Source of the DNA: Pseudonocardia ammonioxydans
Lineage (GTDB): Bacteria; Actinomycetota; Actinomycetes; Mycobacteriales; Pseudonocardiaceae
NCBI RefSeq assembly: GCF_900115005.1
Contig: NZ_FOUY01000015.1
Location: 1 to 64,000, forward strand
Reading direction: 5' to 3'
DNA: 64,000 bases
The position numbers and the translations under genes are program-made. Below are positions 8,886-48,752 of this stretch, one piece after another; within the stretch, counting starts at the first letter, position 1, and every line of letters begins with the position of its first letter. The notes beneath the pieces were generated by a model, which was not told where the DNA came from, did not search any database, and worked only from the letters and a program-made list of their open reading frames with translations.

Positions 8886-9527
8886 GACACAGCCACCGCC
8901 GCCGGCAGCGGCACGACCACCACCGACGACGCCGGCCCGGCGCTGGGCCTGCACCTCGGCATGGGCGGACGGATCGTCGTCACCGACCCGGCGGGCGAAC
9001 CGGTCGGGGAGGGGCCGGTCCCCGCCGACCGACGGCCCGATGCGGCCCGGTGGACCCGCTTCACCGTCACCTTCGACGACGGCGGCGAGCTCCGGCTGGT
9101 CGACAAGCGCCGTCTCGGCCGGGTGCGGCTCGACCCCGACCTGTCCGGCCTCGGCCCGGACGCGGAAGGGATCGCGCCCGCGGAGTTCCGGGACCGGCTG
9201 GCGCGCGGGCGCTCGACGGTCAAGGCACGACTGCTCGACCAGTCGGTGATCGCCGGGGTGGGGAACCTGCTCGCCGACGAGACGCTGTGGCAGGCGCGGA
9301 TCGACCCGCGCCGGCGGGTTCCCGACCTGACCCGCACCGACCTGGACCGCGTGCACCACCACCTGGGCCGCGCGCTGGCCCGGGCGGTCGCGCACGGCGG
9401 TGTGCACACCGGGGAGGTGATCGAACACCGGCGCCCGGGCGGGCACTGCCCGCGCTGCGGTGCCGAGCTGGCCCACGGCACGGTCGGGGGCCGGTCGACC
9501 TGGTGGTGCCCGCGGGAGCAGACCTGA
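8871..9527 (+). pseudogene. Fpg/Nei-family DNA glycosylase, split by the integrated element (3' part)
   Basis: About 218 C-terminal residues remain: the end of the beta-sandwich (GPALGLHLGMGGRIVV), the H2TH helices with IAGVGNLLADETLWQARI, and a zinc-finger segment CPRCG...WWCPREQ in which the usual last Cys is absent, as in some actinobacterial Nei-type enzymes. The catalytic N-terminal proline and glutamate are on the other side of the element. An in-frame ATG at 8834 in element DNA could start a fragment lacking the active site. The host would lose this base-excision repair enzyme while the element is in place, unless excision restores the gene. Confidence 0.85.
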
Positions 9528-9552
9528 GCACGCGACCGTGCACAATCGACCC

Positions 9553-10197
9553 GTGCCGGACGAGTCGGACACCGCCCTGCTGTACGTCGACCGTGGTCTC
9601 GTGCGCGCCGACGACGGCCCACCCGACCAGCGGGCGCAGCGCCGTGCGCACGCCCGGGCGCGGGCCGCGCGACGGGTGCGGTGGGCGGTGCCGGCGGCAC
9701 TGCTGCTCGCCGTGCTCGCGGCGTGGCCGGTGGGCTCCGCGCCGCTGTTCTGGCTCGCGATCGCGGTCCTGCTCGTCGCCGGCGTCGCGATGGTGGTCCT
9801 GACCCGCGCCGCCCGGGTCGCCCATGCCGTGGCGGGCCTGCCGGTGCCGATCGAGATCACCGGGAAGGTGGCGACGGCGCTGCGCTCGGTGCTGGCCATG
9901 ACCCGCGGCATCGCGGGGCAGCGGGCGCTGCGGCGCTCCGGCGCGGCCGCCGAGGGCATGCGGGTGCTGCGGGACTGGTCCACGGCGACCGACGGGCTGC
10001 GCACCAGCTGGTTGCGCGGCGACGTGGCGGCCTGGCACGAGCACGCCCGCACCCTCGCCGCCACCGGCGCCCGCGCCGACCGGGTCCGGGCCGACCTCGA
10101 GAGCGGCCCCGGCGACAGCGCCCCCGGAAGGAACGGCCCCGGCGGGCCCGGAGACGGTGATCCGGGGAGCGGCGGTACCCGGGACAGCGGCAACTGA
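9553..10197 (+). CDS. two-pass membrane protein, function unknown
   Basis: This 214-residue protein is read from GTG 9553 (VPDESDTALLYVDRG). Residues about 35-50 are strongly basic. They are followed by two hydrophobic segments (VPAALLLAVLAAW and WLAIAVLLVAGVAMVV) and a helical cytosolic part with a Gly/Pro-rich tail. The positive-inside rule puts both ends in the cytoplasm. It is separate from the glycosylase gene by 25 bases and converges on the PAP2 gene. I do not recognise a family. Confidence 0.65.
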   Translation: MPDESDTALLYVDRGLVRADDGPPDQRAQRRAHARARAARRVRWAVPAALLLAVLAAWPVGSAPLFWLAIAVLLVAGVAMVVLTRAARVAHAVAGLPVPIEITGKVATALRSVLAMTRGIAGQRALRRSGAAAEGMRVLRDWSTATDGLRTSWLRGDVAAWHEHARTLAATGARADRVRADLESGPGDSAPGRNGPGGPGDGDPGSGGTRDSGN

Positions 10198-26802: not shown

Positions 26803-26877
<75 letters not shown>

Positions 26878-26878
26878 G

Positions 26879-26950
26879 AGGCGGCGGCGGGAATCGAACC
26901 CGCGTACAGGGCTTTGCAGGCCCTTGCCTAAGCCACTCGGCCACGCCGCC
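26879..26950 (-). tRNA. tRNA-Cys(GCA), cassette 1
   Basis: Acceptor GGCGGCG/CGCCGCC, anticodon loop CTGCAAA and T-loop GGTTCGATTCC fold normally. No CCA is encoded. Its acceptor pair at position 6 is C-G, whereas cassette 2 has A-T, a compensated change. Confidence 0.95.
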
Positions 26951-26982
26951 GGATTCCCGGCTCGTGAAACGAGACCCGGCCG

Positions 26983-27055
26983 AGCGGACGACGGGACTCG
27001 AACCCGCGACCCTCACCTTGGCAAGGTGATGCGCTACCAGCTGCGCTACGTCCGC
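26983..27055 (-). tRNA. tRNA-Gly(GCC), copy 2, cassette 1
   Basis: The body sequence equals copy 1 at 22866, with anticodon loop TTGCCAA, but CCA is not encoded (the sequence after discriminator T is CGG). It is the first tRNA of the cassette. Confidence 0.95.
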
Positions 27056-27109
27056 ATTTCTCCGTACCGTTCCCGGAGCGTTTCCGCTCGTTCCCGGTGC
27101 GTTGTCAGA

Positions 27110-27115
27110 ACACTA
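27110..27115 (-). promoter_or_regulatory. likely -10 box of tRNA cassette 1
   Basis: On the minus strand TAGTGT lies inside ATAGTGTTCT, about 55 bases before tRNA-Gly. The same core precedes cassette 2, which supports a shared promoter. Confidence 0.45.
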
Positions 27116-27240
27116 TCGCACGGCCCGGAGCGTCCGACGAGGGGGTGGGGGTGACTCGTTCCCGCTGGTCATCGGGTGGACGGCGGTCCCGTGGTGGGGT
27201 CTTCGGGGTGGGCCCCTGGATCCGAAGGGTCCGGGAAACA

Positions 27241-27272
27241 GAAGATCCCCGGGCCGATGCCGGCCCGGGGAT
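27241..27272 (-). terminator. terminator of tRNA cassette 2
   Basis: A 12-bp stem (ATCCCCGGGCCG / CGGCCCGGGGAT, four-base loop) is nearly identical to the terminator of cassette 1, but with CTTCTG in place of TTTTC after it. Confidence 0.75.
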
Positions 27273-27280
27273 TCCCGGTC

Positions 27281-27355
<75 letters not shown>

Positions 27356-27356
27356 G

Positions 27357-27428
27357 AGGCGGAGGCGGGAATCGAACCCGCGTACAGGGCTTTGCAGGCC
27401 CTTGCCTAAGCCACTCGGCCACTCCGCC
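27357..27428 (-). tRNA. tRNA-Cys(GCA), cassette 2
   Basis: As in cassette 1 but with acceptor GGCGGAG/CTCCGCC. Both strands of the pair changed together, so the fold is preserved. No CCA is encoded. Confidence 0.95.
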
Positions 27429-27449
27429 GAGAACTGAGCGACTTCTCCG

Positions 27450-27522
27450 AGCGGACGACGGGACTCGAACCCGCGACCCTCACCTTGGCAAGGTGATGCG
27501 CTACCAGCTGCGCTACGTCCGC
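27450..27522 (-). tRNA. tRNA-Gly(GCC), copy 3, cassette 2
   Basis: Same body as the other two tRNA-Gly copies in the window. No CCA is encoded. It is the first tRNA of the second cassette. Confidence 0.95.
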
Positions 27523-30723: not shown

Positions 30724-30795
30724 GGGCGATTAGCTCAGGGGGAGAGCGCTTCGTTCACACCGAAGAGGTCACTGGTTCGATCCCAGTATCGCCCA
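30724..30795 (+). tRNA. tRNA-Val(CAC)
   Basis: Acceptor GGGCGAT/ATCGCCC, anticodon loop TTCACAC and T-arm GGTTCGATCCC fold well. No CCA is encoded. It marks the change from housekeeping genes to an island of conflict genes, and a possible integrase remnant faces it. This is the usual layout of an element integrated at a tRNA 3' end. Confidence 0.95.
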
Positions 30796-30801
30796 CAGTC
30801 A

Positions 30802-31467: not shown

Positions 31468-32262
31468 TCAGTACTCGGCAGTGACGTCCCGTGCGCCGCC
31501 GCTCGGCATGAGCGACAGGAGGTCGAAGTCGGCGATGTCCCTGTACGGGACCAGCTCGCGGCCCGCACCGAAGGTGCGGGGCATCTGCAGCTTGATGTTG
31601 CGCCCGGGCTTGCGCTTGCGCGAGAACCGGTGCCGGAGGTCTCGTTCGGCCTGAGTGATGTCGACGTGGCGGGCCTCGACGACCTGCAGCACGTGGCAGT
31701 CGGGGTTCGTGAGGTGCTGCCGCCCCCGAGCGTCCGTGCCGTGACCGAGCTTCACCCAGTTCTGCCAGGCGACGAGGTAGAGACGCTGGGGAGCATCGGC
31801 ACGTGACTCCCACGAGCGCGAGGTCGGGTCCATGCGCAGGGAGCCCAGGACCTGCTTCTTCCAGGGGGCGAGATAGGCGGCGCGCTCCTGCCCCCGGAGA
31901 GCGCGCTCACGTGCATTGCGAGGGCGCTGTGCCTTGGGAAGTGCCTCGGCGAACCGGCGAAGGGCATCGACGTGCGCTGACACGGTCTCGGCAGTCTGGG
32001 GCCCCCGGTAGGTCCGTGGACGGACGTACTCCCCGGTGACGCGGTCGTCGACGACTTCCAGCGCCTCCGCCACCGCCACGATGTTGTCCAGGAGCCGGAG
32101 GAACACTCCCTCCTTGTCCTCCAACTCTTCTCCGGACGTGTCGAGAACGTCGTCGACGGCGGCGGCGAGCGAGCGCAGCACCAGGTCGTTGAGGAAGGAG
32201 AAGACGTCGGCGTCGACGGTCTCCACGCGCCGACTCCGCGTCCGGTCCACTGCGATAGTCAT
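31468..32262 (-). CDS. GIY-YIG/T5orf172-like protein of the island
   Basis: This 264-residue protein starts at ATG 32262. The first 120 residues are helical and acidic. The C-terminal half resembles T5orf172/MUG113 members of the GIY-YIG nuclease superfamily: LYLV (161-164) and VKLG (170-173) in place of GIY and YIG, an Arg in TDARGRQ, and the candidate catalytic Glu206 in QAERDLRHRF. Proteins of this type occur in phages and conflict islands. It is convergent with the decayed integrase region and divergent from the nuclease-helicase pair. Activity is uncertain because the motifs deviate. Confidence 0.5.
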   Translation of the reverse strand: MTIAVDRTRSRRVETVDADVFSFLNDLVLRSLAAAVDDVLDTSGEELEDKEGVFLRLLDNIVAVAEALEVVDDRVTGEYVRPRTYRGPQTAETVSAHVDALRRFAEALPKAQRPRNARERALRGQERAAYLAPWKKQVLGSLRMDPTSRSWESRADAPQRLYLVAWQNWVKLGHGTDARGRQHLTNPDCHVLQVVEARHVDITQAERDLRHRFSRKRKPGRNIKLQMPRTFGAGRELVPYRDIADFDLLSLMPSGGARDVTAEY

Positions 32263-32439
32263 GCCGCTCCCAGGCCGTCCGATCTCTCCGGCCATTCGCG
32301 TACACCGCTTAGGCCGTTACGGAGGCGGCGCGAGGGCCGTTCGGCCTACTCAATACTGCTGAAGACCCGTGGGAACCGGTAATCGCGGCGGCCGGCCGGC
32401 GATGGGACAGGTGACAGTTCCGGCCGAGGGGAGCAGGGA

Positions 32440-35046
32440 ATGGGCGGGTTGCAGTCCGGGGGCGGCACCAGCGCGGTCGCCGCGTCGGCTCACGCGGGAT
32501 GTGAGCGGTTCCGGCTCACCGACCCGTTCATCACCAGTAGGACCAGGCGAGCGACGGCGACCTTCCTCGGTTTCCCGGACGACTCCGCCGGCATTCCCGA
32601 GGCCCGCTGGATGCGCGCGATGACCTTCGAGGCCTTGGTCCACGGCGAGCGCTTCGTCTCGGAGCTCCTGACCCGTACGGTCGGACGGCTCGGGCTGCCG
32701 CGACCGGATTCCGTCCGGCGCCGAGACTGCGGCGGGAAGGTCGGCAGCACCGCCGCGCAGCTGGTCTCCGCACACGAGGCTGCGATCTCCGGTCAGGCGA
32801 CGATGCTGACCCGGCTCGCGGTGCCGTACGTCCATCTGGAGCACCGCGCCGACGCCACCGCGGTCCAACCGGACTTCGCGATCGTCTGCCCGCGGGTGGA
32901 CGGCGGGTCTTGGCTGATCATGGGCGACGCGAAGGACTACGAGCGGATCCGTTCCCGCATCGACGACCAGCGGATGCTGAAGGGCTTCCTGCAGGTCGCG
33001 CTGGGAGCCGAGTCCGCGGAGGCGTGGTCGAAGCTCCCGGCGGGCATGTCCGTGCACCGCTCCGGCGCACTCGCCGTCCCGCGCAACGCCTTCTTGCAGC
33101 CGGAGCCGGTCGTCGAGCTCCTCGACGACCACCGCGGCGAGGTTCGGGCGCGCGCCGAGGAGCGGCTGGCAATGCGGGCCAAGCTCGGCGACGACCGTCC
33201 GACCGACGACGAGCTGGCGGACTTCGTCGCCCACCAGACCGCGGTGTTCGACCCGCGCAGCTGCGTCACCTGCAGCCTCTTCACCTACTGCCGTGCAGAG
33301 CTGCGCGCCCGCCCCGAGCCAGAGGCGCTGCTCACCGAGATCGGCGTCGAGCGGCACCTGCACGCAGCCGTCCAAGCCGGCACCGCGCCGAAGAGCGTGA
33401 CCGACCAGGTGGAAGCCACCCTCAGCGGCCTTCCCGCCTGGTCCGACCGACGGCGGACGGACCCGGCGGGGGAGCCGGGAACGATCGACGTCGTCGTCGT
33501 GAAGTCGGACTCGGCCGCGCTGGGTGTGCACGGCGTGGCCGTGCGGTCCCACCCGGGAACCTGGGTTCGGCAGACCTTCGCCGACCCGCAGTCGCCGCTG
33601 ACCCGACGGGCCGTGATGCGCCTGATCGGCGAGGCGATCCGCGGGCACTCCGGACGGCTACCCGTCCAGCTCGTCGTCCCGGACCGCCCGACCGCCGATC
33701 TCCTCGCGACGGCCGCGGACTCCCTCGCCGGCGTCGAGCTGAGCAGGCTGCGGTGGGAACGTGACCTGGAGCAGGGCCGCCCCGCGCTGACTTTCGACGG
33801 TGCCGAGGCCACGATCCCCGAACCGCTGCACCCGGACGAACGCCTCGCCGTCAGCTTCCTGCTCGAGGAGGACCGCGCTCGTGCGATGAGGTTGCGGACG
33901 CCAATCCTCGACCTCCGCTCGATCCTGGCCGCCCACGTGACGGCCGGGGGACCGGCGATGGACGCCGGCCGCCTCGACTACCTGGTCACCTGGGCCGAGG
34001 CCACCGAGCCGCTCGACCACCGCGCGGTGTCCGACGCCATCACCGCGCAGGAGCAGACTCCGGGCGCCCGTCTGTCCAACGTCGTCTCGGACGCGCTCCA
34101 CGGTGCCCGCCGCGAACGCGCCGGCGAGGTCTACGAGGAGCTCGTCTCCGAGGCACTCGACTACCGGATGTCGGTCGTCGAGCGGGCGATCGCGGTGCTC
34201 TCGGGACTGCCGTCGTCGCGGCTCCGTGAGGTGCACCGCGCGCTCGAGGCGGACGCCCAGGAGGTGTGGGGTCGTCGGCTCGCGCTTCAGGCGTCGGACC
34301 TGGTCCGCTTCTCCCGGACCTACACGAGCTGGCGCAACGCCCAGGTCGAGATGCTCGACGACGATCGCACCTGCGCGGTCCAGCTCGGCTCCCTTGGCGA
34401 CTACGGGGTCGCGCACGACCGCGCCGCAGACGCCGGTGTGCGCGAGCTGGCCCTCGCGACCGTCACCGCCGTCGAGCCGCTCCGGCTCCGTGTCCGGTCG
34501 CGTCGACTCAAGGCGGGCACGCGCGTCGTCGCGCTGCACGTCAACGGCGAGGCCATGATCGAGCGGGCGTCGACCACGCTGAAGATCCAGGGCGGGTCCT
34601 TCAAATTCGGGCAGATGGCGATCGGCGATCTCGTCGAGACGGCGGGCGACGAGCTGGAGTGGCAGCCCAAGGTGTGCCCTCCGCTCGCCGTCGGCGACGA
34701 GATCGTCCTGGCGGACGCCGCCTGGTTCGGCAAGCTGTTCAAGAACAGTGTCGACCTCGCGGTAGCCCGGCCGAGCCAGGACAACCAGGCCGCACCGAAG
34801 TCGGACTGCGGGCCGGACACCTACACAGCCGACAAAGGCAAGCACCTTTGGTGCTGCCGCCCCCACGCCGTCGCCGAGGCCGAGTGGTCGGACACGCTCG
34901 CGGTGCGTCGGGCGCGCGGAGAGCTCAATCCGGACACCTGGCCACCGCTCGTCGACGAGGAGCGGTTCGACGTCGGCGGTGACGCCCCCGCCGAGCCGCC
35001 CGCCTCCGTTGCCCCCGCCGCCCTCACGATCGACGACCTGGACTGA
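32440..35046 (+). CDS. RecB-like PD-(D/E)XK nuclease with Cys cluster, large
   Basis: This 868-residue protein has an N-terminal nuclease region with PDFAIV (about 144), then WLIMGDAKDYE (about 158-168). The second Asp and the Lys of DAK fit the D...(D/E)xK active site. C-x2-C-x6-C (SCVTCSLFTYC, about 274-284) recalls the Fe-S cysteines of Cas4/AddB/Dna2 nucleases; a fourth ligand is not obvious. The remaining 550 residues are helical with a beta-rich, OB-like end and no motif I know. Two bases separate it from an SF1 helicase gene, so they likely form one machine, like a split Dna2. Confidence 0.6.
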   Translation: MGGLQSGGGTSAVAASAHAGCERFRLTDPFITSRTRRATATFLGFPDDSAGIPEARWMRAMTFEALVHGERFVSELLTRTVGRLGLPRPDSVRRRDCGGKVGSTAAQLVSAHEAAISGQATMLTRLAVPYVHLEHRADATAVQPDFAIVCPRVDGGSWLIMGDAKDYERIRSRIDDQRMLKGFLQVALGAESAEAWSKLPAGMSVHRSGALAVPRNAFLQPEPVVELLDDHRGEVRARAEERLAMRAKLGDDRPTDDELADFVAHQTAVFDPRSCVTCSLFTYCRAELRARPEPEALLTEIGVERHLHAAVQAGTAPKSVTDQVEATLSGLPAWSDRRRTDPAGEPGTIDVVVVKSDSAALGVHGVAVRSHPGTWVRQTFADPQSPLTRRAVMRLIGEAIRGHSGRLPVQLVVPDRPTADLLATAADSLAGVELSRLRWERDLEQGRPALTFDGAEATIPEPLHPDERLAVSFLLEEDRARAMRLRTPILDLRSILAAHVTAGGPAMDAGRLDYLVTWAEATEPLDHRAVSDAITAQEQTPGARLSNVVSDALHGARRERAGEVYEELVSEALDYRMSVVERAIAVLSGLPSSRLREVHRALEADAQEVWGRRLALQASDLVRFSRTYTSWRNAQVEMLDDDRTCAVQLGSLGDYGVAHDRAADAGVRELALATVTAVEPLRLRVRSRRLKAGTRVVALHVNGEAMIERASTTLKIQGGSFKFGQMAIGDLVETAGDELEWQPKVCPPLAVGDEIVLADAAWFGKLFKNSVDLAVARPSQDNQAAPKSDCGPDTYTADKGKHLWCCRPHAVAEAEWSDTLAVRRARGELNPDTWPPLVDEERFDVGGDAPAEPPASVAPAALTIDDLD

Positions 35047-35048
35047 CA

Positions 35049-36539
35049 GTGACCATCTGCTTCACGCCCGCGGCCGCCCACCTGACCGACGCCGCCCACC
35101 ACGGAGATGCCGCACGAGGCAACGTCGCAGCCTCCGACCGGGCCATCGCCGCCCTGCAGCAGGTCCTGGCGAGCCAGGCCGACCACGACAAGATCCTCCT
35201 CCGGGCCGCTGCGGGCGCCGGCAAGTCCGTCGCCCTCGTGCGGATGGTGGCGACCGCGCTGGAGCACCCGAAATGCCACCGGGTCGCGGTCACGGCGTTC
35301 GCGAACAAGCAGGTCTTCCCGCTCGCGGGTTCGCTCGGAACCGAGCTCGGGGCCGCGACGGTGTGCCTGTTCGTGAGCAAGGACCGGCTCGACGACATCC
35401 CCGACCACGTCCTCTCCGCGGTCACCGTCGCGACCGGCCTGGATGACATCCCGGACACCGCGCGCGTCGTGCTCGGGACGTCGCACAAGCTCGGCGCGAT
35501 GTACTACCGGACGCGGTGGTCGCAGCTCGGTTCCGTGGCCAACGGCGATCGCCCCTTCGACGTCCTGTTCGTCGACGAGGCGTGGCAGCTCCCGCTGCAC
35601 CGCTACGCGACGGTGGAGAAGCTGGCGCCGCTGTCGGTGGGCGTCGGGGACGTGGGGCAGCTGCCGCCCATCGACCCGTCGGAGAACCCGTGGCGCGGCG
35701 ACCCCGGCTACAACCCCTACCGCGCCTGGCCGACGGCGTTCGAGGCCCTGGACAGCACCGTCACGATCGACCTCCCCGCAGTCTGGCGCCCGACTGCCGC
35801 CCAACTCCCGCTCTGGCGAGCCTTCTACAGCGACTGGGACCGCCTCGACTGCGTCGCCGGCCCGGGCGACCGCCGCATCGACCTGCCGCCCCTCGACGGC
35901 GCGGTCCGGACGGTCTGGGAGGCCGTCGCCACCGGCGCCCCGACCCTGCTGGAGATCGACGGTCTGCCGGACGCCGAGGCCCCCGACATCGACCAGCCAC
36001 TGCTCGACGAGCTGGAGCGCCTGCTGGAGCCGCTGCTCGCGGGCGGTTTCTCCGCGATCTCAGCCCGCCACGACGGCGCCTGGCAGCCCGCTGGGGAGAA
36101 GGTCATCGACTCGGCGGATCCCGGCGACGACCCGTTGATCGTCATCCTCGCCACCCGCAACCAGGCCGTCGACGATGCCGCGGAGATGGTCGAGCGCCTC
36201 ACCACCCGCCTCGACCTTCCCGAGGGTGTCCTCCGCGCCTCCACCGTGGACTCCTGGCAGGGCCAGACCAACGCGATCACGATCGCCATCCACCCCCTCT
36301 CCGGCGCGGACAAGCTCGACGACTTCAACTCCGCCTTCGGCCGCCTCGCCGTCACCTGCACCCGAGCCACCCACGGCCTCCTGATGCTCGCCCGCAGCGG
36401 CCTCGACCAGCTGTTAGACGACGCCGCAGCTCAGCCGGGCACGCCCCTCGGCGAGCCCGGCACCCGCTCACTCCCGAGGCAGACCCACCAACGGATCCTG
36501 AACACCTTCAATCGCGCCGCTCTGCAGCTGCAGCCATGA
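35049..36539 (+). CDS. SF1 helicase/ATPase partner of the RecB-like nuclease
   Basis: This 496-residue protein is read from GTG 35049. Motifs in order: Walker A AAAGAGKS (about 52), VLFVDEAWQLP (about 171), GDVGQLPPI (about 199), STVDSWQGQT (about 396) and VTCTRATHG (about 433) with the arginine of motif VI. This is an Upf1/UvrD-type SF1 motor, compact, without extra domains. Its size is like GajB of Gabija, but its partner is a PD-(D/E)XK protein and not an OLD-family ATPase. It probably unwinds or translocates DNA for the nuclease encoded just upstream. Confidence 0.75.
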   Translation: MTICFTPAAAHLTDAAHHGDAARGNVAASDRAIAALQQVLASQADHDKILLRAAAGAGKSVALVRMVATALEHPKCHRVAVTAFANKQVFPLAGSLGTELGAATVCLFVSKDRLDDIPDHVLSAVTVATGLDDIPDTARVVLGTSHKLGAMYYRTRWSQLGSVANGDRPFDVLFVDEAWQLPLHRYATVEKLAPLSVGVGDVGQLPPIDPSENPWRGDPGYNPYRAWPTAFEALDSTVTIDLPAVWRPTAAQLPLWRAFYSDWDRLDCVAGPGDRRIDLPPLDGAVRTVWEAVATGAPTLLEIDGLPDAEAPDIDQPLLDELERLLEPLLAGGFSAISARHDGAWQPAGEKVIDSADPGDDPLIVILATRNQAVDDAAEMVERLTTRLDLPEGVLRASTVDSWQGQTNAITIAIHPLSGADKLDDFNSAFGRLAVTCTRATHGLLMLARSGLDQLLDDAAAQPGTPLGEPGTRSLPRQTHQRILNTFNRAALQLQP

Positions 36540-36579: not shown

Positions 36580-36939
36580 CTACGTGTAGTCCGTGCGGTC
36601 CTGTGCGCGTTCGAACGCCCCGCAGCGGAGGCGGGTGTTCCAGACCCGACGCCCACCGCTGGGCTGGGGTGGTCCGGTCCAGCGGCGATCCGGGTTCCAC
36701 CAGCAGCTCTCGACCTTGGCCGTCCCGATGTCCAGAGCCTCGTCCAGCGCGGGGGCCAGGTCGGTGTCGTGGGACGCGAGGATGACGAGTCCGATCTCCG
36801 GATCCGCCGCCTCACGGACGAGTGCGAGAGCGACCAGGACGTCGACTCCCTTCTCACGCACTTCTGAGATCATCCGGCGCTCGTCCCGACTCTCAGGGCG
36901 GCGATAAGCGGGAGGAGGAGTGAATCCGGCAACTGCTGG
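36580..36939 (-). pseudogene. truncated NYN-domain ribonuclease (C-terminal half)
   Basis: The frame contains EKGVDVLVALALVREA and GLVILASHDTDLAPALDEAL, the conserved later half of NYN (PIN-like) RNases, including the Asp cluster. The N-terminal strand with the first catalytic Asp is absent. The frame begins directly after the stop codon of the GmrSD-like gene and in the same register, so a deletion probably joined the two. An internal ATG at 36873 could start a 97-residue fragment. Confidence 0.7.
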
Positions 36940-39546
36940 TCACGATACTTCGGGGCCATCGGTTGGGTGTCGATGCTTCTGCAGGCCGGGAACGACCAGA
37001 TCCGGTTCAAGCCCCCGCCCGGTGGAGGGCGTGAGTCCTGAAACGTGAGATGCCCTCACACGTTCGAGGAACCATCGTTGGGCCTCACATGCCGCCTGCA
37101 GGCCGTCCTCATCACCGAGTAGCGCGAGAGGGACGGACGGCCGCAGCTCCAGCCGCGAAATCGGGATGTCGACGCCTGGAATCTTGTTGACCATCGTCCT
37201 GAACTCGTCCCGGACTGCGGTGTCGTCGAAGGGCGGCCGAGTAGTCAGATGCTGGAACACGACCTCGACCACGCCCGAGGTGGGCTTGATGGCCCACGGC
37301 CAGAAGTGTTCCGAGTAGTGCACCATGGGGAAGCAGCTGGTCTGAGCGCCGGTGCCCCAGGAGAAGGCTCCGCCGGCCGCGCCCCAGTCGTCCAGGAGCC
37401 GACGGACCCCGTCCCGGACCGTGGTGGGCTGGTTGGCTTCGAGCTGCAGCCAGAAGCGCTGTTCGTCGCGGTCGTTCGTTGCTTCAGCCGGTACCTCGAT
37501 CCCAATGAGCGCAGCCAGGTCGAGAGGCCCCAGACGTTGAGCGGGTTCGGCTCGACCTTTCTCGGTGAAGCGGATTCCCTCGGCGCGGAGGACGTCCGAA
37601 GGCTTGTCGGTACGTGCCGGATCGGGCCAGCGGAACTCCGCTGAGACCGTTCCGTCAGCCCGGAGAACCCGCCACGCGTTGGGGACAGGCCGGCCGGCGA
37701 GGTAGTTCCCCAGAGGCTTGGGATGTACGCCGCTGACCGCGGCCAGATCCCCATAGGACGTCCACGTGCCCTCGGGCATGGCCGCGCAGATGCGGCGCAC
37801 GGCCTGCCACTGGTCGGAGACGTCGGTCGCCGTGGCCTCGCGACGTGGACCCGGCCACACGGCGGCGGCGCGGGCCGCCAGCGCCGCGCCGCGATCCCGG
37901 ATCTGGGGCAGTCCCCAGCTCGGCTGCCGTGCGACTTCGGTACTCATCGAGAACTTGCTGAACCGTAGGAGTTCCCGCTTGTCGGCGAAGGGCTTGTTCG
38001 AGAGGTCGGGGTTGTAACCGGTCAGAGTCAGGTTTCCGAGCAGGTGTACTACCCGCTGGTGCAGATCGGCAGGCGTCTCGCCGGGCTCGACGTCGGGTTC
38101 CAGCAGTGCAAGCCACTCCGGGGTCGGTGTCTGTGGGAGGACGTGTTCGACCTGCACGGTCGTCTGCTCCCAGTCGATGAGTTCCTTGTGCCCGTAGCTC
38201 TCCTCGAGGCGCCGGAGCACGAAGAGCCGCTGGGACGCCCGCCCGACCCAGTAGAAGTTGAGGGTCTGGATGCTCTCGGCGAGCTGTTCGTCGTCGGGCC
38301 AGAAACGCCGGGGCTGGGAGAGAAAGACACGGAGTGCTTCGGCGGCGTCAGGGGTCTCGGCCGCGGCTATCGCGGACTGGGCGAGCGCCCGGTTGATGCC
38401 CGACGCAGTTCGACCGCACAGCATTCGTCGGACCAGGTAGGACTCCAGGTACAGCATCGCCGTCTCTGCCTCGCCCTCAGCTGCGCGACCGGTCTCGCGG
38501 CGGTCGAGCAGGACCATGAGGACGGGGTAGACGGCTTCGCCGCCCCACTGCGCCAGGCGTCGCAGCGCGGCTGCCGCCTCGCGGTCCGGCGGCTCGGTCA
38601 GGGAATCGGGATGGATGATCGCGTGAAGGTGACGGGCTCGCCTCGCGAGCTCTACGATCTCCGTCTCGACGGCGTCCTCGTCGTGGGCGATGGGACGGAA
38701 TCGCTTCTGCTGCGCGAGGTAGGTGTCGCTGCGCCGTAGTTCGGGCTGGCCGCGGAGGACCAGATCTAGGTAGGCGAGCGTCTCGACATGCTGCGTACCG
38801 AGAACTTCCTGCATGGGAGCCCACACCTTCGTGTAGACATCTTCGGCTCGGCTGGGAAGCAGCATGAACAGGTGGTTTCGCAGGAGATCGCCCAGGCTGA
38901 GAGCCATACCGGTGTTGTTCAGCGACTCGAAGATGCGATGGACGTTGTCGTCCTGCTCCGCAGTGACGGACACGACGTCGAGGCGACTAACGATGGCCTG
39001 CTCGATCCTGTTCAGATCATCGGGATCCTCGGGGTCGTCTGCAGCGGCGATCTGCCCCAGGAAGTACCGGTAGGCAGCCGCGACGTTTCCGCCCGTCGGC
39101 TTGTGCTCTGCGGCAATACAGGCAGTGAACGCCTCACGATCCGTCTGAGTGGGGAGAAGCTTGAAGTGGTCGTTCCCGGTCTGGTACTCGTTCACCAGCC
39201 ACTGCCGATGGATCCGGTCCGCAGCCCGAGGGCTCTCAGCGCGGACATGATCCCGCAGCGCGGCCAGCGCGAGCATGAGCGTCGTCAGGCGCTGCTGCCC
39301 GTCGACGACGAGCCAGCGCTGAACACCACCGGCGATCGTCGCATTTGCGGGTGCCAGCACCAACGATCCGACGAAATGGCCGGGGGAATTCGGGTCGTCG
39401 CCGAGCGCCTCCGCCTGCGCCACAACGTCTGCCCACAGCCGTTCGAGCTGCGGTTTCTGCCACGCATAGGTGCGCTGGTAAAGAGGAACGAGGTACTGCT
39501 TCTCTCCCTCGAGGATCGGCTTGAGGGTCATCTCCTTCGCCTGCAT
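36940..39546 (-). CDS. GmrSD-type (DUF262-DUF1524) nuclease with alkyltransferase-like domain
   Basis: This 868-residue fused protein has several domains. DUF262/GmrS comes first (VPLYQRTYAW about 20; VVDGQQRLTTL about 80). The HNH-like DUF1524/GmrD follows (QVEHVLPQTPTPEW about 460; LGNLTLTGYNPDLSNKPF about 505). Then comes a domain at about 582-660 matching the DNA-binding part of O6-alkylguanine transferases (WTSYGDLAAVSG; LAGRPVPNAWRVLR), where the reactive PCHR cysteine motif is replaced. A further domain of about 180 residues is unknown. GmrSD enzymes cut modified phage DNA. The start ATG overlaps the previous stop (TGATG). Confidence 0.85.
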   Translation of the reverse strand: MQAKEMTLKPILEGEKQYLVPLYQRTYAWQKPQLERLWADVVAQAEALGDDPNSPGHFVGSLVLAPANATIAGGVQRWLVVDGQQRLTTLMLALAALRDHVRAESPRAADRIHRQWLVNEYQTGNDHFKLLPTQTDREAFTACIAAEHKPTGGNVAAAYRYFLGQIAAADDPEDPDDLNRIEQAIVSRLDVVSVTAEQDDNVHRIFESLNNTGMALSLGDLLRNHLFMLLPSRAEDVYTKVWAPMQEVLGTQHVETLAYLDLVLRGQPELRRSDTYLAQQKRFRPIAHDEDAVETEIVELARRARHLHAIIHPDSLTEPPDREAAAALRRLAQWGGEAVYPVLMVLLDRRETGRAAEGEAETAMLYLESYLVRRMLCGRTASGINRALAQSAIAAAETPDAAEALRVFLSQPRRFWPDDEQLAESIQTLNFYWVGRASQRLFVLRRLEESYGHKELIDWEQTTVQVEHVLPQTPTPEWLALLEPDVEPGETPADLHQRVVHLLGNLTLTGYNPDLSNKPFADKRELLRFSKFSMSTEVARQPSWGLPQIRDRGAALAARAAAVWPGPRREATATDVSDQWQAVRRICAAMPEGTWTSYGDLAAVSGVHPKPLGNYLAGRPVPNAWRVLRADGTVSAEFRWPDPARTDKPSDVLRAEGIRFTEKGRAEPAQRLGPLDLAALIGIEVPAEATNDRDEQRFWLQLEANQPTTVRDGVRRLLDDWGAAGGAFSWGTGAQTSCFPMVHYSEHFWPWAIKPTSGVVEVVFQHLTTRPPFDDTAVRDEFRTMVNKIPGVDIPISRLELRPSVPLALLGDEDGLQAACEAQRWFLERVRASHVSGLTPSTGRGLEPDLVVPGLQKHRHPTDGPEVS

Positions 39547-39932
39547 CAGGCGCTCCTCCGAGTGTCGAGATGCTGGGTCACGTCGAGAACCTCGCTGTGC
39601 CATGCGCGGAGCTCGGGCCCGGTGGGGGCGAGTTCGTAGGCGTGATGGTGGGCGGCTCGGGACAGGGTGTGCCAGAGTTCCGTGGCGCGGGCACCGAGGC
39701 TGGGGTCGACCGTGAGGCTCAGGGTGAGAAGTTGAGCCCTCCTGCTACGGACCGCTGCCATCGCCGGATTATGGGCGGCCCAGAAGTCGTCCAGGCCGTG
39801 CTCGAGGGCCAGGCGGACGAGCCAGGTGCAGGTGCGGGGCCAGGCGCCGTACTCGACCAGATCGGGGTCATTGAGGATCCGGTCGGCGACGGCGAGGCGA
39901 CGGAAGGCTTCGTGACTCACGTCTGCAGCCAC
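39546..39932 (-). CDS. small helical protein of the ATPase/GmrSD set
   Basis: This 128-residue all-helical protein opens MAADVSHEAFRRLAVADRIL and has a His-rich turn (SRAAHHHAYELAPTGPELRAW). The pattern suggests a HEPN-like or adaptor fold, but the R-x4-6-H RNase motif is not clearly met. Its gene overlaps the Rad50-like ATPase gene by 16 bases and shares one base with the nuclease gene, so the three are translationally linked. In Lamassu-type systems a similarly small protein links the SMC-like ATPase to the effector; such a role here is inferred from order. Confidence 0.6.
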   Translation of the reverse strand: MAADVSHEAFRRLAVADRILNDPDLVEYGAWPRTCTWLVRLALEHGLDDFWAAHNPAMAAVRSRRAQLLTLSLTVDPSLGARATELWHTLSRAAHHHAYELAPTGPELRAWHSEVLDVTQHLDTRRSA

Positions 39933-42313
39933 TCCGCGAGTTTCTCGACATCCTGGATGAACGGCTTGAGGTCGCCGACCATGCCCTTATGGGCACCCTT
40001 CTTGCACATTCGGAAGGCATCGGCGGCACCGGGACCGGCCGCTGCGAGCTTCACGGAAAGGTCACCACCGTTGATCGTGTCGAACACGGCCAGGTTGGCC
40101 TTCTTGTTGGTGGTATTCGCCTCGAGGATCGCCGCCTCGACCTCGGCGTGCGAGTAGCCCTTGCCGAGGCGGGCGGAGCGGATCTTCGCGTGGCAGGCGG
40201 CCTCGATGGCACTGCGGCAGCACGACGCGACGAGCTCGCTCCGGACGTCCGGCGGCAAGGCTGTGGTCAGGTTCATCGCGCGGGCGTCGTCGAGATAGCG
40301 GGCGATCGGATCACCGCTCGGACGCATCTCGACGGCGGAGCGTTCGCCGCGTGCGACCTCCCAGATCGTCGCGGACAGCTCGAGGCGGCGGACGGCATCG
40401 GCCAGGCGGTCGTCGTGGGTGAAGACCACGACCTGTCGGGTCAGCGCGACGTCGGCCAGTACCCGAGCGAGGCCATCGACCTTTGCCGGGTCCATGGCCT
40501 GCACCGGGTCGTCGATCAGGACGAAGCGGAACGGACTCTGGTCCACCGTGGCTCGCGGGAGAAACAGTGACAGACCGAGAGCGTGCAGCTCGCCCTGGCT
40601 CATCACGCCTAGGGCGGTGCCGCCGTCGACGTCGTCGATCCGAACGTCCATGGCGACCCGGCGGCGGTTGGCGGCGCCGTCCAGCCGGACCGGACCGAGC
40701 TCGACGTTGCTCTGCTGACGCAGCGCCTGCCAGGTCTGCCGGGACTGCTCGGCGAAGGGAGCGAGGCGTTGGTCGCGGAGCTGTGCTGACGTATCGGCGA
40801 GCCACTTGTCAGCGCGTTCGAGCGCGGCGAGGCGGTCGGACTGGGTGGCGGCCTGTGCGGCCTCGTCGTGCCAGGCACTGAGCCTGCGGGCGACGGGGGC
40901 CCAGGCCTCGTCGAGCCGGGCGAGCTGCGCCTCCGCGTCCGCCTTCTTCGCTGCGAGTGCGGTGCGCGCAGGCCCATGGGCGGTCTCCAGCGCCTGGGCG
41001 AGAGCGGCGGGTCCCTCGGCATGCCGGACAGCCGACCACGTGTCCCACACATCGCCGGCCAAAGGGATCGGCTGTACCACGGAGCGGGCGTCCGCTGTAG
41101 CGCGATCGAGCTCCGACATCGTCCGCCGCGACTCCGCGGTGGCCTGCTCCAGGTCTTCCATACGACCGGCTGCCCGAGTCCGCCACGCGTCGTCGAGCGT
41201 CCCCTTCTCGCAGACCGGGCACGACTGAATCCCGGATTCGGCGTGGTCGTGCAGGGCGGTGCGCAACAGCTCGACGACGCGGTCAGCGTGGCCGGTCTCG
41301 GCGTTCGCCACCGCGGCGTGCTCGTCCAGTCGCCGGCGGATCTCCGCCGTGGCGGTGGCGATCTCGTCGGGTTCCGGCAGCCGCAGTTCGAGGACGGCGC
41401 GTAGGCGGGCGGCCTCCGCATCCGGTTCGCCGGCTCCTGCAATCAGTTCGGCGATTGCGGCAAGATCAGGTTTGGTGGGTTTGAGCAAGGCGGCTGCCTG
41501 GGTGATCCGGGGATCGTCGCTGTTCTCCAGCTCGGCCCGCAGGGCTTTTCGTTGCGCGTTCGCGGAACGGGCGGCCTCACCGATCCGCTTGCGAGCCGCC
41601 TTGATCCGGTCGTGGGCTGCAGTCAGCGCGCCGAGCCCGAGCAGGCGGTGCAGGGCGTCGTGCAGCTCGCTGGGCTTGCCGTCGATCAGCGCGCCGAGCT
41701 CGCTGTAGGAGAGGAAGGGGCGGTAGGTGCTCATCGCGTCCCGCCAGCTGGATCCGTCGAAGTCTGCGCGCTTCGCCTTCGGCTCCTGACGAGTCCAGCG
41801 GGCTTCGTCGAGCTCTGCGCCCTTCTCCCACCGCTTCTCGATCCGAGTGGTGCCCGAAATACCTGCGGTGATCAGATCGACGGCGACGGAGCGCTCGTCG
41901 TCGGTGTGGATGTTGCGCCAGCCGTCCCGCCAGACGCTCGTCCGGTTCTCCCAGCGGCGGCTCGTGCCGGTCAGCACCAGCTCCGCGGCTTCGGCGAAGC
42001 TCGACTTACCGGATCCGTTCCGGCCGGTCACCAGGGTGAGCCCCGGGCCGGGCCGTAGCGGCAGAGTCGCGGGAGCGCCGATGCCGCGGAAACCTTCGAC
42101 GTGAACGGCGGCCAGGTAGACGTTCGGGTGCTCAGCGGCCTCGGAGGTGGCGCGTTCTGCCGCGGGACCTCCGCGGCCTTCGACGGCGTCGGTGAGCTCC
42201 TGGTCCCCCGCCCATGCGGCGAGAACGAGGCCCGACACCGTGTCGTCCGCAGCCTCGTCCGCAATGAGGCGCTCCAGCAGCAGGTCGTGGAGGCCGTGTT
42301 CCGCTACGTTCAT
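39917..42313 (-). CDS. Rad50/SMC-like ATPase with zinc hook
   Basis: This 798-residue ATPase has Walker A TGRNGSGKSSF (about 92), a long coiled-coil middle with a Rad50-type zinc hook CPVC (about 364), the ABC signature region MSQGELHALGLSL (about 567) and Walker B FVLIDDPVQAMDP (about 594). A C-terminal domain of about 120 residues follows the ATPase head. Such proteins sense DNA ends or foreign DNA and control a nuclease. It is the second gene of the minus-strand set, 68 bases after the DNA glycosylase gene, and overlaps the next gene. Confidence 0.85.
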   Translation of the reverse strand: MNVAEHGLHDLLLERLIADEAADDTVSGLVLAAWAGDQELTDAVEGRGGPAAERATSEAAEHPNVYLAAVHVEGFRGIGAPATLPLRPGPGLTLVTGRNGSGKSSFAEAAELVLTGTSRRWENRTSVWRDGWRNIHTDDERSVAVDLITAGISGTTRIEKRWEKGAELDEARWTRQEPKAKRADFDGSSWRDAMSTYRPFLSYSELGALIDGKPSELHDALHRLLGLGALTAAHDRIKAARKRIGEAARSANAQRKALRAELENSDDPRITQAAALLKPTKPDLAAIAELIAGAGEPDAEAARLRAVLELRLPEPDEIATATAEIRRRLDEHAAVANAETGHADRVVELLRTALHDHAESGIQSCPVCEKGTLDDAWRTRAAGRMEDLEQATAESRRTMSELDRATADARSVVQPIPLAGDVWDTWSAVRHAEGPAALAQALETAHGPARTALAAKKADAEAQLARLDEAWAPVARRLSAWHDEAAQAATQSDRLAALERADKWLADTSAQLRDQRLAPFAEQSRQTWQALRQQSNVELGPVRLDGAANRRRVAMDVRIDDVDGGTALGVMSQGELHALGLSLFLPRATVDQSPFRFVLIDDPVQAMDPAKVDGLARVLADVALTRQVVVFTHDDRLADAVRRLELSATIWEVARGERSAVEMRPSGDPIARYLDDARAMNLTTALPPDVRSELVASCCRSAIEAACHAKIRSARLGKGYSHAEVEAAILEANTTNKKANLAVFDTINGGDLSVKLAAAGPGAADAFRMCKKGAHKGMVGDLKPFIQDVEKLAEWLQT

Positions 42314-42381: not shown

Positions 42382-43212
42382 TCACGATCGGGTGACTGCG
42401 GTGTCGATGAGTTGCCTGATCTGCTGCAAGGGGTCCTCGGCAGCGTCGGAGGTGAAAGGATCGAGGACGGCGACGGCGGTCCGGAGATCATCGAGGGCCA
42501 CCAGCGCCTCGCCGTGGGGGTCGGACTCGACCGTGAGGTCCGCCGATCGGTAACCGCCGTCCGAGGCCCGTTGGTCCAGGAAGACCAGCTCCTCGACCTG
42601 GTCGCTCGGTATGCCGAGCAAGGTGCCCCACGACTCCAGGCGATCGAGGTAGAGGCCGTACTGGCGGGTGGACCAGGTGCCGGCAAGGCGGAGACCCGCG
42701 TGCCGGGCGAGCCACCGCCGGACGACCTGGTCGAGGACGGGAGCGGTCCGTCCGTCGTGCTGGTCGCGTACGGCAGCGGTGCAGAAGTAGATGTACTTCG
42801 TGCCGAACGCCGGGCCTAGATAGGGGAGAGGTGCGGCCGCCATGGCGGCGAAGGCGGCCTCCGGGCCATGGTGAGCCGCTTCGGCTACCGCGCGCAGGCG
42901 AGGTCCGGCTGCGTCTCCACTGTGGTCGAGGATGCGGCGTGTACGCCAGGCGCCGTAGCCGACACGGCCGTAGCCCCAGGCCATCGCGGTGACGAATGCC
43001 CGGATCGCCTGCTCGTCGCTGTCGGTCGCCGCGCGCGCCGCGACCTCGGCGTCACCCCGGTCGATCGTCGGAGTCGTGGGCAGCCGATCGTCGCCGATCC
43101 ACTTCTTCCACGTCGCACAGCGCCAAGTGGTCGGACTCTGCCGTCGACCGGACGTGCACCACCTCTCGAACGCCAGGTGAAGTCGCGCCGGGGCCTCGTT
43201 GCTCACCGTCAT
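42382..43212 (-). CDS. OGG1-fold DNA glycosylase (HhH-GPD-like)
   Basis: This 276-residue protein has the helix-hairpin-helix and active-site arrangement of OGG1. YLGPAFGTKYIYF puts Lys139 where OGG1 has its catalytic lysine, and APVLDQVVRRWL puts Asp161 at the catalytic aspartate. The surrounding sequence matches bacterial proteins named 8-oxoguanine glycosylase OGG fold. It would remove a damaged or modified base. It is the first gene of the minus-strand set with the Rad50-like ATPase and the GmrSD-ATL nuclease, which suggests action on modified invader DNA and not housekeeping repair. Confidence 0.7.
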   Translation of the reverse strand: MTVSNEAPARLHLAFERWCTSGRRQSPTTWRCATWKKWIGDDRLPTTPTIDRGDAEVAARAATDSDEQAIRAFVTAMAWGYGRVGYGAWRTRRILDHSGDAAGPRLRAVAEAAHHGPEAAFAAMAAAPLPYLGPAFGTKYIYFCTAAVRDQHDGRTAPVLDQVVRRWLARHAGLRLAGTWSTRQYGLYLDRLESWGTLLGIPSDQVEELVFLDQRASDGGYRSADLTVESDPHGEALVALDDLRTAVAVLDPFTSDAAEDPLQQIRQLIDTAVTRS

Positions 43213-43391: not shown

Positions 43392-46300
43392 TCAGGGATA
43401 GTCGTGACCCTCCGGTCCGTCGCAGCGGACGAGGGGGGCGACCTGCTCGAGCCTGGCGCGGATCACGTGACCGAGCTTCGTGTTGTCGTAGCGCTGCATC
43501 GTGGCGCGGTACACGGCGGTCGGATCGCCCCACCCGAGATCTGCCGCCTCCTCCGCCATCACGGCGGCGAGCTCGGCCGGTGGAATCTGGTCGAACGACC
43601 GGGCGCCGAGGTCACGGACACGGACCTCTGGTTGGTTGGGCAGCCGCAACGTGGCCGGTTTGATGCCGGACTCGCCGAGCGGGTTGTCCCGCACGAGTCG
43701 GCCGGTCCGGATCGCCGAGCTGATGGCGGAGTTCAAGGCCTTCGTGATCAGGGCGCCGGCACGCCTGCCCGCGGACGAGCGGACGTAGACGTGGCGCAGC
43801 CGGCTGCCGAGCACCGGGCCCTCTACCGCGACGATGGCGACGAGGCCGTCGACGATCTGCTTCGTCGACGCGTCCGACACCGGCGTCGTGGCACCGTCGA
43901 ACTCTTGGTAGGAGGCCCGGTGCACCCGGCCTTCGGCGAACGCCTCAGCCGCGGCGTCCGGCTCGACGTCGATCATGTCGTCGGATGAGACCTCGACTTC
44001 CGCAGCGGCGGTGGGCTCCACCGCGGTGGGTGCCGGTGGCGCCACGTCGACGGTGTGTACTCCCCACGCGGGGGTGGGTGCCTCGGTGTCGGGCCCGTCG
44101 TCCGTTTCAGCCGCGACCGGAGCCGCCCAGCCCGCGGGGTGGATGTCGAGCTCCGCGAGCGTCGCCCAGAGCGGCTCCAACGCGGCGACCGGGTCCCGGT
44201 AGAACTCGGACTCCAGGATCCGGTGGAAGCGCCAGCCGCAACGCTCCAGTTCCCGCTGCCGGCCCATGTCCCGCTGGTAGGCCTCCGGGCCGTGCCAGAA
44301 GTCGCCGTCGCACTCGATCGCCAGCCGCCGCGTGGGTCCGACGGCGACGAGGTCGATCGAGTAGCCGAGCGACTCGAACTGCGGGATGAGGGTGTAGCCG
44401 CGGGCGGCGATGCGGTTGTGCACCCGCTGCTCGAACAACGAGCCGAACGGGGCGACCGGCATGTCCTCGGAGACGAGGCCGGTCGTCGCGCCCTCGTGCT
44501 CCTCGACGCCGCGCGCGGCGATGCCGTAGCAGTAGTCGAGCAGCTGGTAGCGCATGTCCTCGGGATTGGTGAGGGTCGTGCGGTCGACCGAGTGGAACAC
44601 CCACAGCTGGTCCTTGGCGCGGGACGCGGCAACGTTGTAGCGCTGGACGTACATCGTCTGTGTCAATGCCGTCAGCCGGCGCTCGGGCCCCGGTGCCGCC
44701 ACCATGGACAGGAAGACGACGTCGCGTTCCGAGCCCTGGAAGTCCGCCGCGTCGCCGCAGCGCAGGTCTCGCGCCGCCCACTCCTCGGGCGTGATGCGGT
44801 CGAGCAGCGCCTTCTCGATCGCCTTGGCCTGGCCCGTCCCGAGCAGCGAGATCACGCCGATCGTCCGACCGTCGTAGGCCGGGTCGGCGATGCACTTCTC
44901 GACCTGCTCGACGATGGCGTCGACTTCGGCAGGGTTCGTCCGGGTACTGGAGGACCCCTTCTCGTACCCGTCCGGCACGAAGACCGGTTTGACGGGCTCG
45001 AGCCGGTCCGCGCCGAACTGGCGGACGGGAACGAGGCGGACGCCGTCCGGCTCGTAGGCGATGCGGTTCGAGAAGCCGATGATCTCCGGCACGCAGCGCC
45101 GGTGCTCCACGAGCGTGATCATCCCGCTGAAGCGCATCTTGGCCTCGTCGAACAGCGACCGCTGCGGGTCCTGCCACGTCGACCGGAACTGGTCGTCGAA
45201 CAGGTACTGGGAGCCCAGGTCGCGCAGCTCCTGCTGGTCGACGCCGACGGCCGACGGCGACACCTGCCGGTCGTCGCCGATCACGACGATCTTGGGGGCC
45301 AGGTACTGCAGGAACGAGGACTCGATGCCCGCCTGGGAGGCCTCGTCGACGATCACGACGTCGAACATGTCGGGCCGCACGTCGAACTGATCGGCGATCC
45401 GGTACAGCGGCATGATCCACACCGGTACGGCCGGGCGGCAGCGGTCCATGGCCGAGCGGATCTCGCGGCGGCGCTGCGCCGCGTAGGTTCCGGTGCCCTT
45501 ACCCAGCCGCTTGACGAGCGCGGCGTACTGCTCGAGGGCTGCCCGGGAACCGCGGGTGAGCCGGCCGGGTGCGACGGCGTGGTCCCAGGCGCGGATCGCG
45601 GACAGCTCGGTGACGTGGCCCCGGATGCGGTCGTCGACGGCGAGGATCTCGCGCTGGAGCGCGTTGACGTCCGCGGCCTCCTGCGACGACAGCCAGCTCG
45701 ATGCGACGGCGTGGCTCCAGCCGTCCTCGATGTCCGCGATCCGCTCGTCCCACACGGGGGAGTCGGGCGTGCTCGCGACCGCGGCGGCGAGGCCGGGGGC
45801 GCCGGTCAGCCGGGCGGCGAGCTCGTCCCGGTGACGGAGCAGCTCGCGGACCTCCCACAGTCGGGCGAGTCGCTGGTGCGCGGAGGCGTAGGCGCGGTCG
45901 TCGCGTGCGCGCGCCGCCCGCAGGAGGAGCGAGAGCGCCGGTGCGGCGTCCGCTTCTCGCTCGGCGTCGACCAGCGCGGTGATGGCCTGGTCGACGCACG
46001 CCGTGGCCGCGGTAGCCTCCTCGGCCGTGTGGACCGCCGCGAGCACGGCGAGGTACCGCTCGACGGACGCCGGGCTCAGCCAGGCGGGGCGGGGGAGCCC
46101 GAGAGCCGCCACCCGACCGTCCTCGGCGAGCAGCCGGGTGTCGAGACCGAGGAGCCTGCCGAGCGAGGCCACCTCGGCCCGGTGCCATTCGAGCCGCTCG
46201 GCCGGGGTGTCCTCCGGCGGGATCACGACCGAGGTGGGCCAGGCCCGGTCCAGGGCGTCCAGAACGTGGTTCGCGTCGACCCAGAGCAGGAACGCACGCA

Positions 46301-48632: not shown

Positions 48633-48752
48633 GTGGGTGCGCAACCTCTCCGTCGTGCGACGCGTCCGGCGTATCGCCTGTGAGCGATGTGTTGTGGCCA
48701 GGCAGCCGATCCGGGTGCACGAGCCTCCGTTCACCCCCGGCGAGCGGGGCAT

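Follow-up and report, generated by a model that had tools for sequence, protein, structure and literature searches.

What kind of enzyme is encoded by two consecutive genes that pair a predicted iron-sulphur nuclease with a helicase, and what might it do for its host? The question is raised by a 64,000-nucleotide stretch of Pseudonocardia ammonioxydans (contig NZ_FOUY01000015.1, positions 1 to 64,000; hereafter the window), which belongs to an actinobacterial genome of 7.36 Mb rich in guanine and cytosine. As the original prediction from the sequence described, an 868-residue nuclease subunit (F1) lies two bases before a compact superfamily 1 (SF1) helicase subunit (F0); the F1 stop codon ends at 35046 and the GTG start codon of F0 lies at 35049 (Table 1). 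We propose that F1-F0 is a split Dna2/TM0106-type nuclease-helicase whose likeliest job is that of a follow-up enzyme for restriction in host defense, a proposal whose chances we regard as evenly balanced. Such a split Dna2-like pair would probably degrade the DNA ends made by the restriction enzymes to which it is linked.

A conserved gene pair

The pairing of F1 with F0 is real and conserved across loci. A scan of GTDB species genomes returned 53 F1 loci besides the window, all actinobacterial by title, and 51 of them carry F0 after F1 on the same strand. At the other two (L099 and L123), the contig ends within or just past F1. Because the scan used two short peptide patterns (with genes called by a purpose-written script), distant relatives of F1 are missed. 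Full-length F1 occurs in 11 of the order's 397 genomes (14 with weak partial matches), and these 11 are the same genomes that carry a close F0, the two genes being adjacent in each; F0-like helicases at any distance are found in 75 of the 397. Among 246 genomes of the class, all five full-length F1 genes adjoin a close F0. The closest named relative of the window's F1 comes from Pseudonocardia pini (82%).

In one case the two genes have apparently disappeared together. In another genome of this genus, a 76-residue remnant of F0, 79% identical, persists at the same tRNA-Val site. There (L068, positions 9436-10042), the counterpart of window position 32051 runs straight into that of 36316, the counterpart of 32052-36315 is missing, and the two alignments overlap by 7 bases. 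Given this direct junction, F1 and most of F0 were apparently lost jointly. The pair is also present on two Rhodococcus plasmids. A phage or prophage origin was considered and rejected, as F1-F0 had no match in phage records and none among the viral-contig candidates (24 and 39 stretches).

As originally supposed, the pair corresponds to no named system in PADLOC-DB 2023 or NCBIfam 2026. Literature searches, which left subscription papers and bioRxiv largely outside their reach, returned no paper describing it.

Predicted architecture and known relatives

The window's F1 matched no family in Pfam, PADLOC or NCBIfam at an expect value (E) of 0.1, TIGR03491 included, and a sequence search of the PDB gave weak matches only (best E 0.14). 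Across 51 aligned F1 sequences (A3; the window and 50 of the 53 loci, with L090, L099 and L132 omitted as broken or cut), Pfam returned scattered weak matches to 14 families; the commonest was DUF6401 (five rows, best E 0.0028) and the best single match DUF2336 (one row, E 0.00019). We describe F1 mainly through an AlphaFold2 model built from 51 sequences (predicted local distance difference test, pLDDT, 87.2; predicted template modelling score, pTM, 0.87), compared with Foldseek candidates by VIA-align. In this model, the N-terminal part is predicted to be a Cas4/Dna2-type iron-sulphur nuclease domain. Its best fold match is Cas4 7mi4 (residues 3-293; Z 11.4, 198 residues aligned, 4.3 Å), followed by MGME1 (9.2), lambda exonuclease (8.4), Cas4 SSO0001 (8.2), AdnA (7.8), Exo5 (7.7) and Dna2 (7.2). 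Residues 346-603 align with DnaQ-type 3'-5' exonuclease domains of T7 polymerase (Z 8.9) and RNase T (Z 8.1). Since Z values of 7 to 8 are common background by the tool's own note, we take the Cas4 match as firm and the DnaQ match as moderate. No acidic pair stands in the first strand of the DnaQ-like domain in any of the 51 rows, so this domain may be non-catalytic. Two long helices (562-588 and 596-616) follow the nuclease and DnaQ-like parts, and an invariant Cys/His set (C790/H802/C805/C806/H809) is located at the end of the protein.

The D...DAK motif on which the original prediction rested is present in F1 (D145...D163-A-K165) and falls within the predicted Cas4/Dna2-like nuclease fold. 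The cysteine cluster is likewise present, with a spacing of Cys-x2-Cys-x5-Cys rather than the x6 first described, and a fourth conserved cysteine, C21, had been overlooked. PMC4176176 gives the same spacing for Cas4 SSO0001 (C188/C191/C197) and for Pcal_0546. Q185 is conserved in 48 of 51 rows. We rejected DAK as an invariant signature of F1, because D163 is variable in Actinopolyspora. In that genus, F1 of L057, L058, L060-L063, L114, L118, L121 and L126 carries A, V or G in its place, and L103 is the only Actinopolyspora row in A3 that keeps D163. Some of the proteins lacking D163 also have R for Q185, with K165 and all cysteines retained. Judged from these substitutions, such pairs may either have lost the nuclease or have a different mode of action.

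F0 has all of the SF1 motifs I to VI, nearly invariant across 47 sequences (A4, which omits L090, L099, L108, L118, L123, L126 and L132). In Pfam, it matches generic AAA helicase families, with AAA_19 barely over the cut-off, and its PDB sequence matches are weak (best E 0.0005). The structure model (pLDDT 85.0) gave Z values of 21.8 for Senataxin, 21.4 for coronavirus nsp13, 20.6 for IGHMBP2, 19.7 for UvrD and 19.4 for Upf1, with about 370 residues aligned to Upf1-family matches versus about 320 to UvrD. As modelled, F0 is a compact SF1 helicase structurally closest to Senataxin, IGHMBP2 and Upf1.

How far does this amount to a split Dna2? PMC4716839 describes Dna2 as a nuclease followed by a beta barrel, which two long helices carry as a stalk, and finally by a motor of the Upf1 family; the nuclease fold of Dna2 needs free single strands. 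F1-F0 resembles Dna2 in joining a predicted iron-sulphur RecB-type nuclease, with its four cysteines and D...DxK, to a motor like those of the Upf1 family; in the F1 model, a helix pair and a beta-rich region, candidate counterparts of the stalk and barrel, come between nuclease and motor. F0 is too small to house a stalk and beta barrel, and the model suggests that F1 may carry both. The differences are that Dna2 holds nuclease and helicase in one chain, as against two open reading frames in the window and its relatives, and that F1 has an additional DnaQ-like domain. Because of the predicted nuclease fold, the Upf1-family-like partner and the lack of a named-system match, the original term "split Dna2" remains fair for the layout, but it leaves out the DnaQ-like domain, and TM0106-type proteins are nearer to F1-F0 in layout than eukaryotic Dna2 is.

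The TM0106 family (TIGR03491) comprises single-chain nuclease-helicases of about 1130 residues, compared with the two chains of F1-F0, and likewise places the nuclease first and the motor last. Its N-terminal Cas4-like nuclease, with a C-terminal Cys cluster, is related to that of F1 (profile z 6.2, 0 of 100 shuffles); an hhalign comparison of the nucleases covered the Cys region only, at a probability of 5.7%. The TM0106 SF1 motor is related to F0 (hhalign E 1.3e-9). Its RNase H-like domain keeps the DxE motif, unlike that of F1, and homology of F1 residues 346-868 to the middle of TM0106 was not established (z -1.1). The window's genome carries a separate TM0106 gene.

Other known systems are more distant. 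Cas4 is the best fold match of F1 residues 3-293, but F1 fuses its nuclease to about 570 further residues and is paired with a helicase. Gabija combines the OLD-type nuclease GajA with the UvrD-like GajB; F1 has no GajA match, and F0 matches GajB just around Walker A (PADLOC, E 0.003). In AddAB and AdnAB, each subunit joins a helicase part to a nuclease part; Pfam, PADLOC and NCBIfam found no helicase family in F1, a result limited by fold searches being unable to exclude one. What is new in F1-F0 is that its layout is split and includes a DnaQ-like domain, and that the pair is repeatedly coupled to restriction systems driven by ATP; the parts themselves are of known kinds.

Table 1. Positions in the window of the F1-F0 pair, its predicted domains and motifs, and neighbouring genes.
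Feature	Position	Strand	Basis or remark
F1 gene	32440..35046	+	open reading frame, 868 residues, nuclease subunit
F1 residues 1-300, Cas4/Dna2-like iron-sulphur nuclease domain	32440..33339	+	predicted, VIA-align fold matches
C21, first Cys of predicted Fe-S cluster	32500..32502	+	51/51
D145...D163-A164-K165, predicted metal/catalytic residues	32872..32934	+	D145 51/51, D163 47/51, K165 51/51
C275-x2-C278-x5-C284, remaining Cys of predicted Fe-S cluster	33262..33291	+	51/51
F1 residues ~346-605, DnaQ/RNase H-like domain without canonical DxE	33475..34254	+	VIA-align
F1 residues 670-776, beta-rich region, candidate counterpart of Dna2 beta barrel	34447..34767	+	secondary structure of the model
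C790...H802, C805, C806, H809, invariant Cys/His cluster, possible zinc site	34807..34866	+	51/51 each
F0 gene	35049..36539	+	open reading frame, 496 residues, SF1 helicase subunit
Helicase motif I (Walker A) AAAGAGKS	35205..35228	+	46-47 of 47 at most positions
Helicase motif II VDEAWQL	35571..35591	+	D, E, A, W 47/47
Helicase motif V STVDSWQGQT	36240..36269	+	F0 alignment
Helicase motif VI AFGRLAVTCTRATHGLL	36333..36383	+	F0 alignment
tRNA-Val gene	30724-30796		upstream of F1-F0
GmrSD-type gene	36940-39603		adjoins F1-F0 (Pfam/PADLOC scans)
SMC/RecF-like ATPase gene	39917-42313		Pfam/PADLOC scans
OGG-like putative DNA glycosylase gene	42382-43212		PF21790, E 2.3e-47; within defense-like island
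Large SF1 helicase with MTES_1575 nuclease	43392-48752		1786 residues

Linkage to restriction and the proposed role

At 28 of the 53 loci, an ATP-driven restriction-modification system is the immediate neighbour of F1-F0 (13 Type ISP, 13 Type III Mod-Res and 2 BPTD_3080-type). This count is a lower bound: partners were identified through their resemblance to a small number of reference proteins, and among the loci lacking a recognised ISP or Type III system the scan covered ten large neighbours in ten loci, none of which revealed one. One member each of ISP, Type III Mod, Type III Res, and BPTD_3080 Mod and Res was scanned against family libraries, and an 83-residue Res remnant at L120 was not counted as linked. 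Type ISP genes are divergent from the pair, with 104-150 base pairs (bp) between, in 11 of 13 loci; at L127 the gene lies upstream in line with a 4-bp gap, and at L104 it lies 163 bp downstream of F0. The L096 enzyme carries Type_ISP_C, ISP_coupler and Mrr_cat_2. Type III Mod-Res pairs stand downstream of F0, with an F0-Mod gap of 10-158 bp in ten loci and a called gap of 410 bp in L128 (the Mod calls of L108 and L111 are partial), and do so on the two Rhodococcus plasmids as well. The L022 copy matches MTase_III (E 3.4e-255) and ResIII. The two BPTD_3080-type loci, L088 and L091, have a Res of that family (NF046055, over the cut-off) and a Mod after F0. A gene of UvrD-plus-RecB type (one member scanned) occurs near 12 of the 53 loci, nine of them Type III loci.

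The kind of restriction neighbour is clustered, not spread at random, over the F1 tree: its label takes 11 changes, where shuffling gives a mean of 25.0 (0 of 200 shuffles as low), and ISP stands in several separate places that include L104 and the long-branch L127. Distances between F1 sequences agree with those between ISP enzymes (r 0.87, 12 of 13 loci, 0 of 5000 permutations) and between Res proteins (r 0.58, 13 of 15 loci, 0 of 5000; the near-copies L023 and L129 were dropped).

Computation thus provides the pairing, the predicted folds, the conserved motifs and the restriction linkage, and our mechanism builds on these. F1 and F0 would form one enzyme, its gene split before the motor, in which F1 would act as a Cas4/Dna2-type iron-sulphur single-strand nuclease driven by the Upf1-like SF1 motor F0; the complex, both activities and any polarity are inferred. 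Translocating restriction enzymes (Type ISP, Type III, BPTD_3080 type) would first cut unmodified DNA. F1-F0 would then load on the cut ends, unwind and degrade them, and the invader DNA would be unable to reseal or recombine, to the presumed cost of the phage. The window copy may serve other cutters, such as the adjoining GmrSD-like enzyme. The antiphage or DNA-processing role originally suggested is likewise an inference, for which the direct linkage to translocating restriction-modification systems is the new evidence.

In E. coli, as stated in PMC12707154, RecBCD degrades restricted DNA and is blocked by phage Gam. A nuclease whose fold requires free single strands, as in Dna2, would together with a motor and next to enzymes cutting after translocation suit the degradation of ends left by restriction, a role like that of RecBCD. 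The same paper describes PrrC with EcoprrI, which is alike in being an extra gene bound to a restriction locus; PrrC differs as a tRNA nuclease responding to restriction inhibition, F1-F0 being a predicted DNA nuclease-helicase. We further suggest, tentatively and at somewhat less than even probability, that F1-F0 is a portable end-degradation module recruited more than once by at least three unrelated ATP-driven restriction families, a RecBCD counterpart that would make cuts irreversible even when phages disable the RecBCD-type enzymes of the host.

Several results weigh against a role after restriction, or against the enzyme assumed for it. With F1, plain Foldseek returned nothing at E ≤0.001 (best MGME1, E 0.029). 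D163 is lost in four of the five Actinopolyspora rows of A3 (L114, L118, L121 and L126) and absent from 6 of 12 rows in a smaller alignment (A1). For F0, SF1B and SF1A cannot be told apart by Z alone, and because UvrD (SF1A) scores as high as Upf1, polarity is not fixed by the fold match. The agreement of F1 with ISP and Res distances, computed with no host-tree control, could reflect joint descent alone. F1 and Mod distances disagree (r 0.18, 11 loci, 937 of 5000 permutations). Recognition resides in a part of Mod that is known to be exchanged; on these distances F1 therefore seems to be tied to the motor or cutting side of the restriction systems. Type ISP enzymes, and the same Type III Mod-Res pair, also occur on other plasmids without F1-F0. 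Finally, at 25 of the 53 loci and in the window, no recognised restriction system of the three kinds adjoins the pair.

These 25 loci and the window also speak for a stand-alone two-gene antiphage system, whose proximity to restriction genes would merely reflect life in defense islands. Other defense genes do lie nearby (PglZ in L098, ZacC in L097, GmrSD-like and SMC-like genes in the window), and full-length F1 is patchy (11 of 397 and 5 of 246 genomes) and found on plasmids. We nevertheless consider this explanation rather unlikely, for the restriction genes, rather than just sharing an island with the pair, directly adjoin it in three fixed arrangements and at operon-like distances, and their association is clustered on the F1 tree. 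Slightly less probable still is a role in repair, with F1-F0 resecting DNA ends as AddAB/AdnAB or Dna2 do and being linked to restriction so as to mend self-inflicted breaks. F1 has fold matches to Dna2, Exo5 and AdnA, and a distant set of genes (F3-F4-F0d, see below) that shares its nuclease and helicase types with F1-F0 occurs in 37 of 246 genomes, sometimes beside SbcCD-like genes; F1-F0, by contrast, is sporadic and plasmid-borne, and the same-genus genome retains only a fragment of it. It is very improbable that F1-F0 acts in trans, cutting DNA on behalf of restriction systems whose own nuclease is inactive: all 15 linked Type III Res proteins read PDF...DPHG where (D/E)xK is expected and the BPTD_3080-type Res of L088 and L091 read EVSG, but the idea is weakened because DPHG is also present in all three Res proteins from systems without F1-F0 (L134-L136) and 12 of 12 linked Type ISP enzymes retain the nuclease motif QCK.

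The genomic island, a distant family and implications

To judge from its annotated neighbours, the window copy of F1-F0 is in a defense-like island (Table 1). Between F0 and the GmrSD-type gene, a 97-residue open reading frame (36580-36873) matches positions 100-157 of the 203 in PADLOC HEC-09 (E 8e-5) and is probably a remnant. The GmrSD-type protein has an additional weak match to DNA_binding_1 (alkyltransferase-like) at 600-676, under the Pfam cut-off, and relatives of it lie close to F1-F0 in L081, L096, L116, L120 and L131. The 1786-residue helicase has partial matches to ProA, Hhe and PDC-S37, those to ProA and Hhe being under the cut-off. Upstream, a tRNA-Val-Cys-Gly cassette is doubled in tandem (26803-27522). 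A simple script found no tRNA-derived direct repeat of at least 14 bases at the far end of the island.

Distant relatives of F0 (F0d) belong to an unnamed operon, F2-F3-F4-F0d, that encodes a Cas4-like nuclease, a protein of about 500 residues and an SF1 helicase. We observed it at L024, L025, L069, L070, L073, L074, L077 and L079, in Streptomyces, Nocardia-like and other actinobacteria; its neighbours are Wadjet jetABCD genes in two plasmids of Streptomyces and, in L025 and L069, SbcCD-like genes. A relationship of F3 to residues 1-345 of F1 emerges from a column-shuffle test (z 10, 0 of 200) and from hhalign (E 3.3e-4, 38% probability); F3 retains EPD...VEIK and the Cys pattern, and F0d helicases are related to F0 (hhalign E 1.9e-37). 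In this operon, unlike in F1, the nuclease and the middle part are on separate genes. Homology of F4 to F1 residues 346-868 was not established (z 3.1, 2 of 200 shuffles), a reversed F4 scoring 9.9 versus 10.9; the background of the profile test is z 1.6 for F1C against F23 and 2.3 for F1N against F24.

Across the 246 genomes, F3 occurs in 37 and F1 in six (five full-length and one 77-residue fragment with stops). F0-type helicases occur in 41, of which five have a close F0 next to F1 and the remaining 36 all contain F3. Many of the distant F0 matches in this set span only the C-terminal motifs. F3 lies upstream of the distant F0, on the same strand and within 6 kb, in 36 of 39 places (not in G015, G028 and G574). 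In the order set, the F0-like genes of L071, L072 and L078 have no F3 in the 20 kb read.

Wherever this helicase subfamily occurs in the 246-genome sample (41 of 41 genomes), a member of one of two Cas4-like nuclease families, F1 or its distant relative, is present too. The finishing of restriction-cut DNA is usually credited to general repair nucleases, which many phages inhibit. If our reading of F1-F0 is true, restriction systems can carry a finishing enzyme of their own, in the Type III operon or beside the Type ISP genes, and F1-F0 offers a small, testable two-protein system of this kind.

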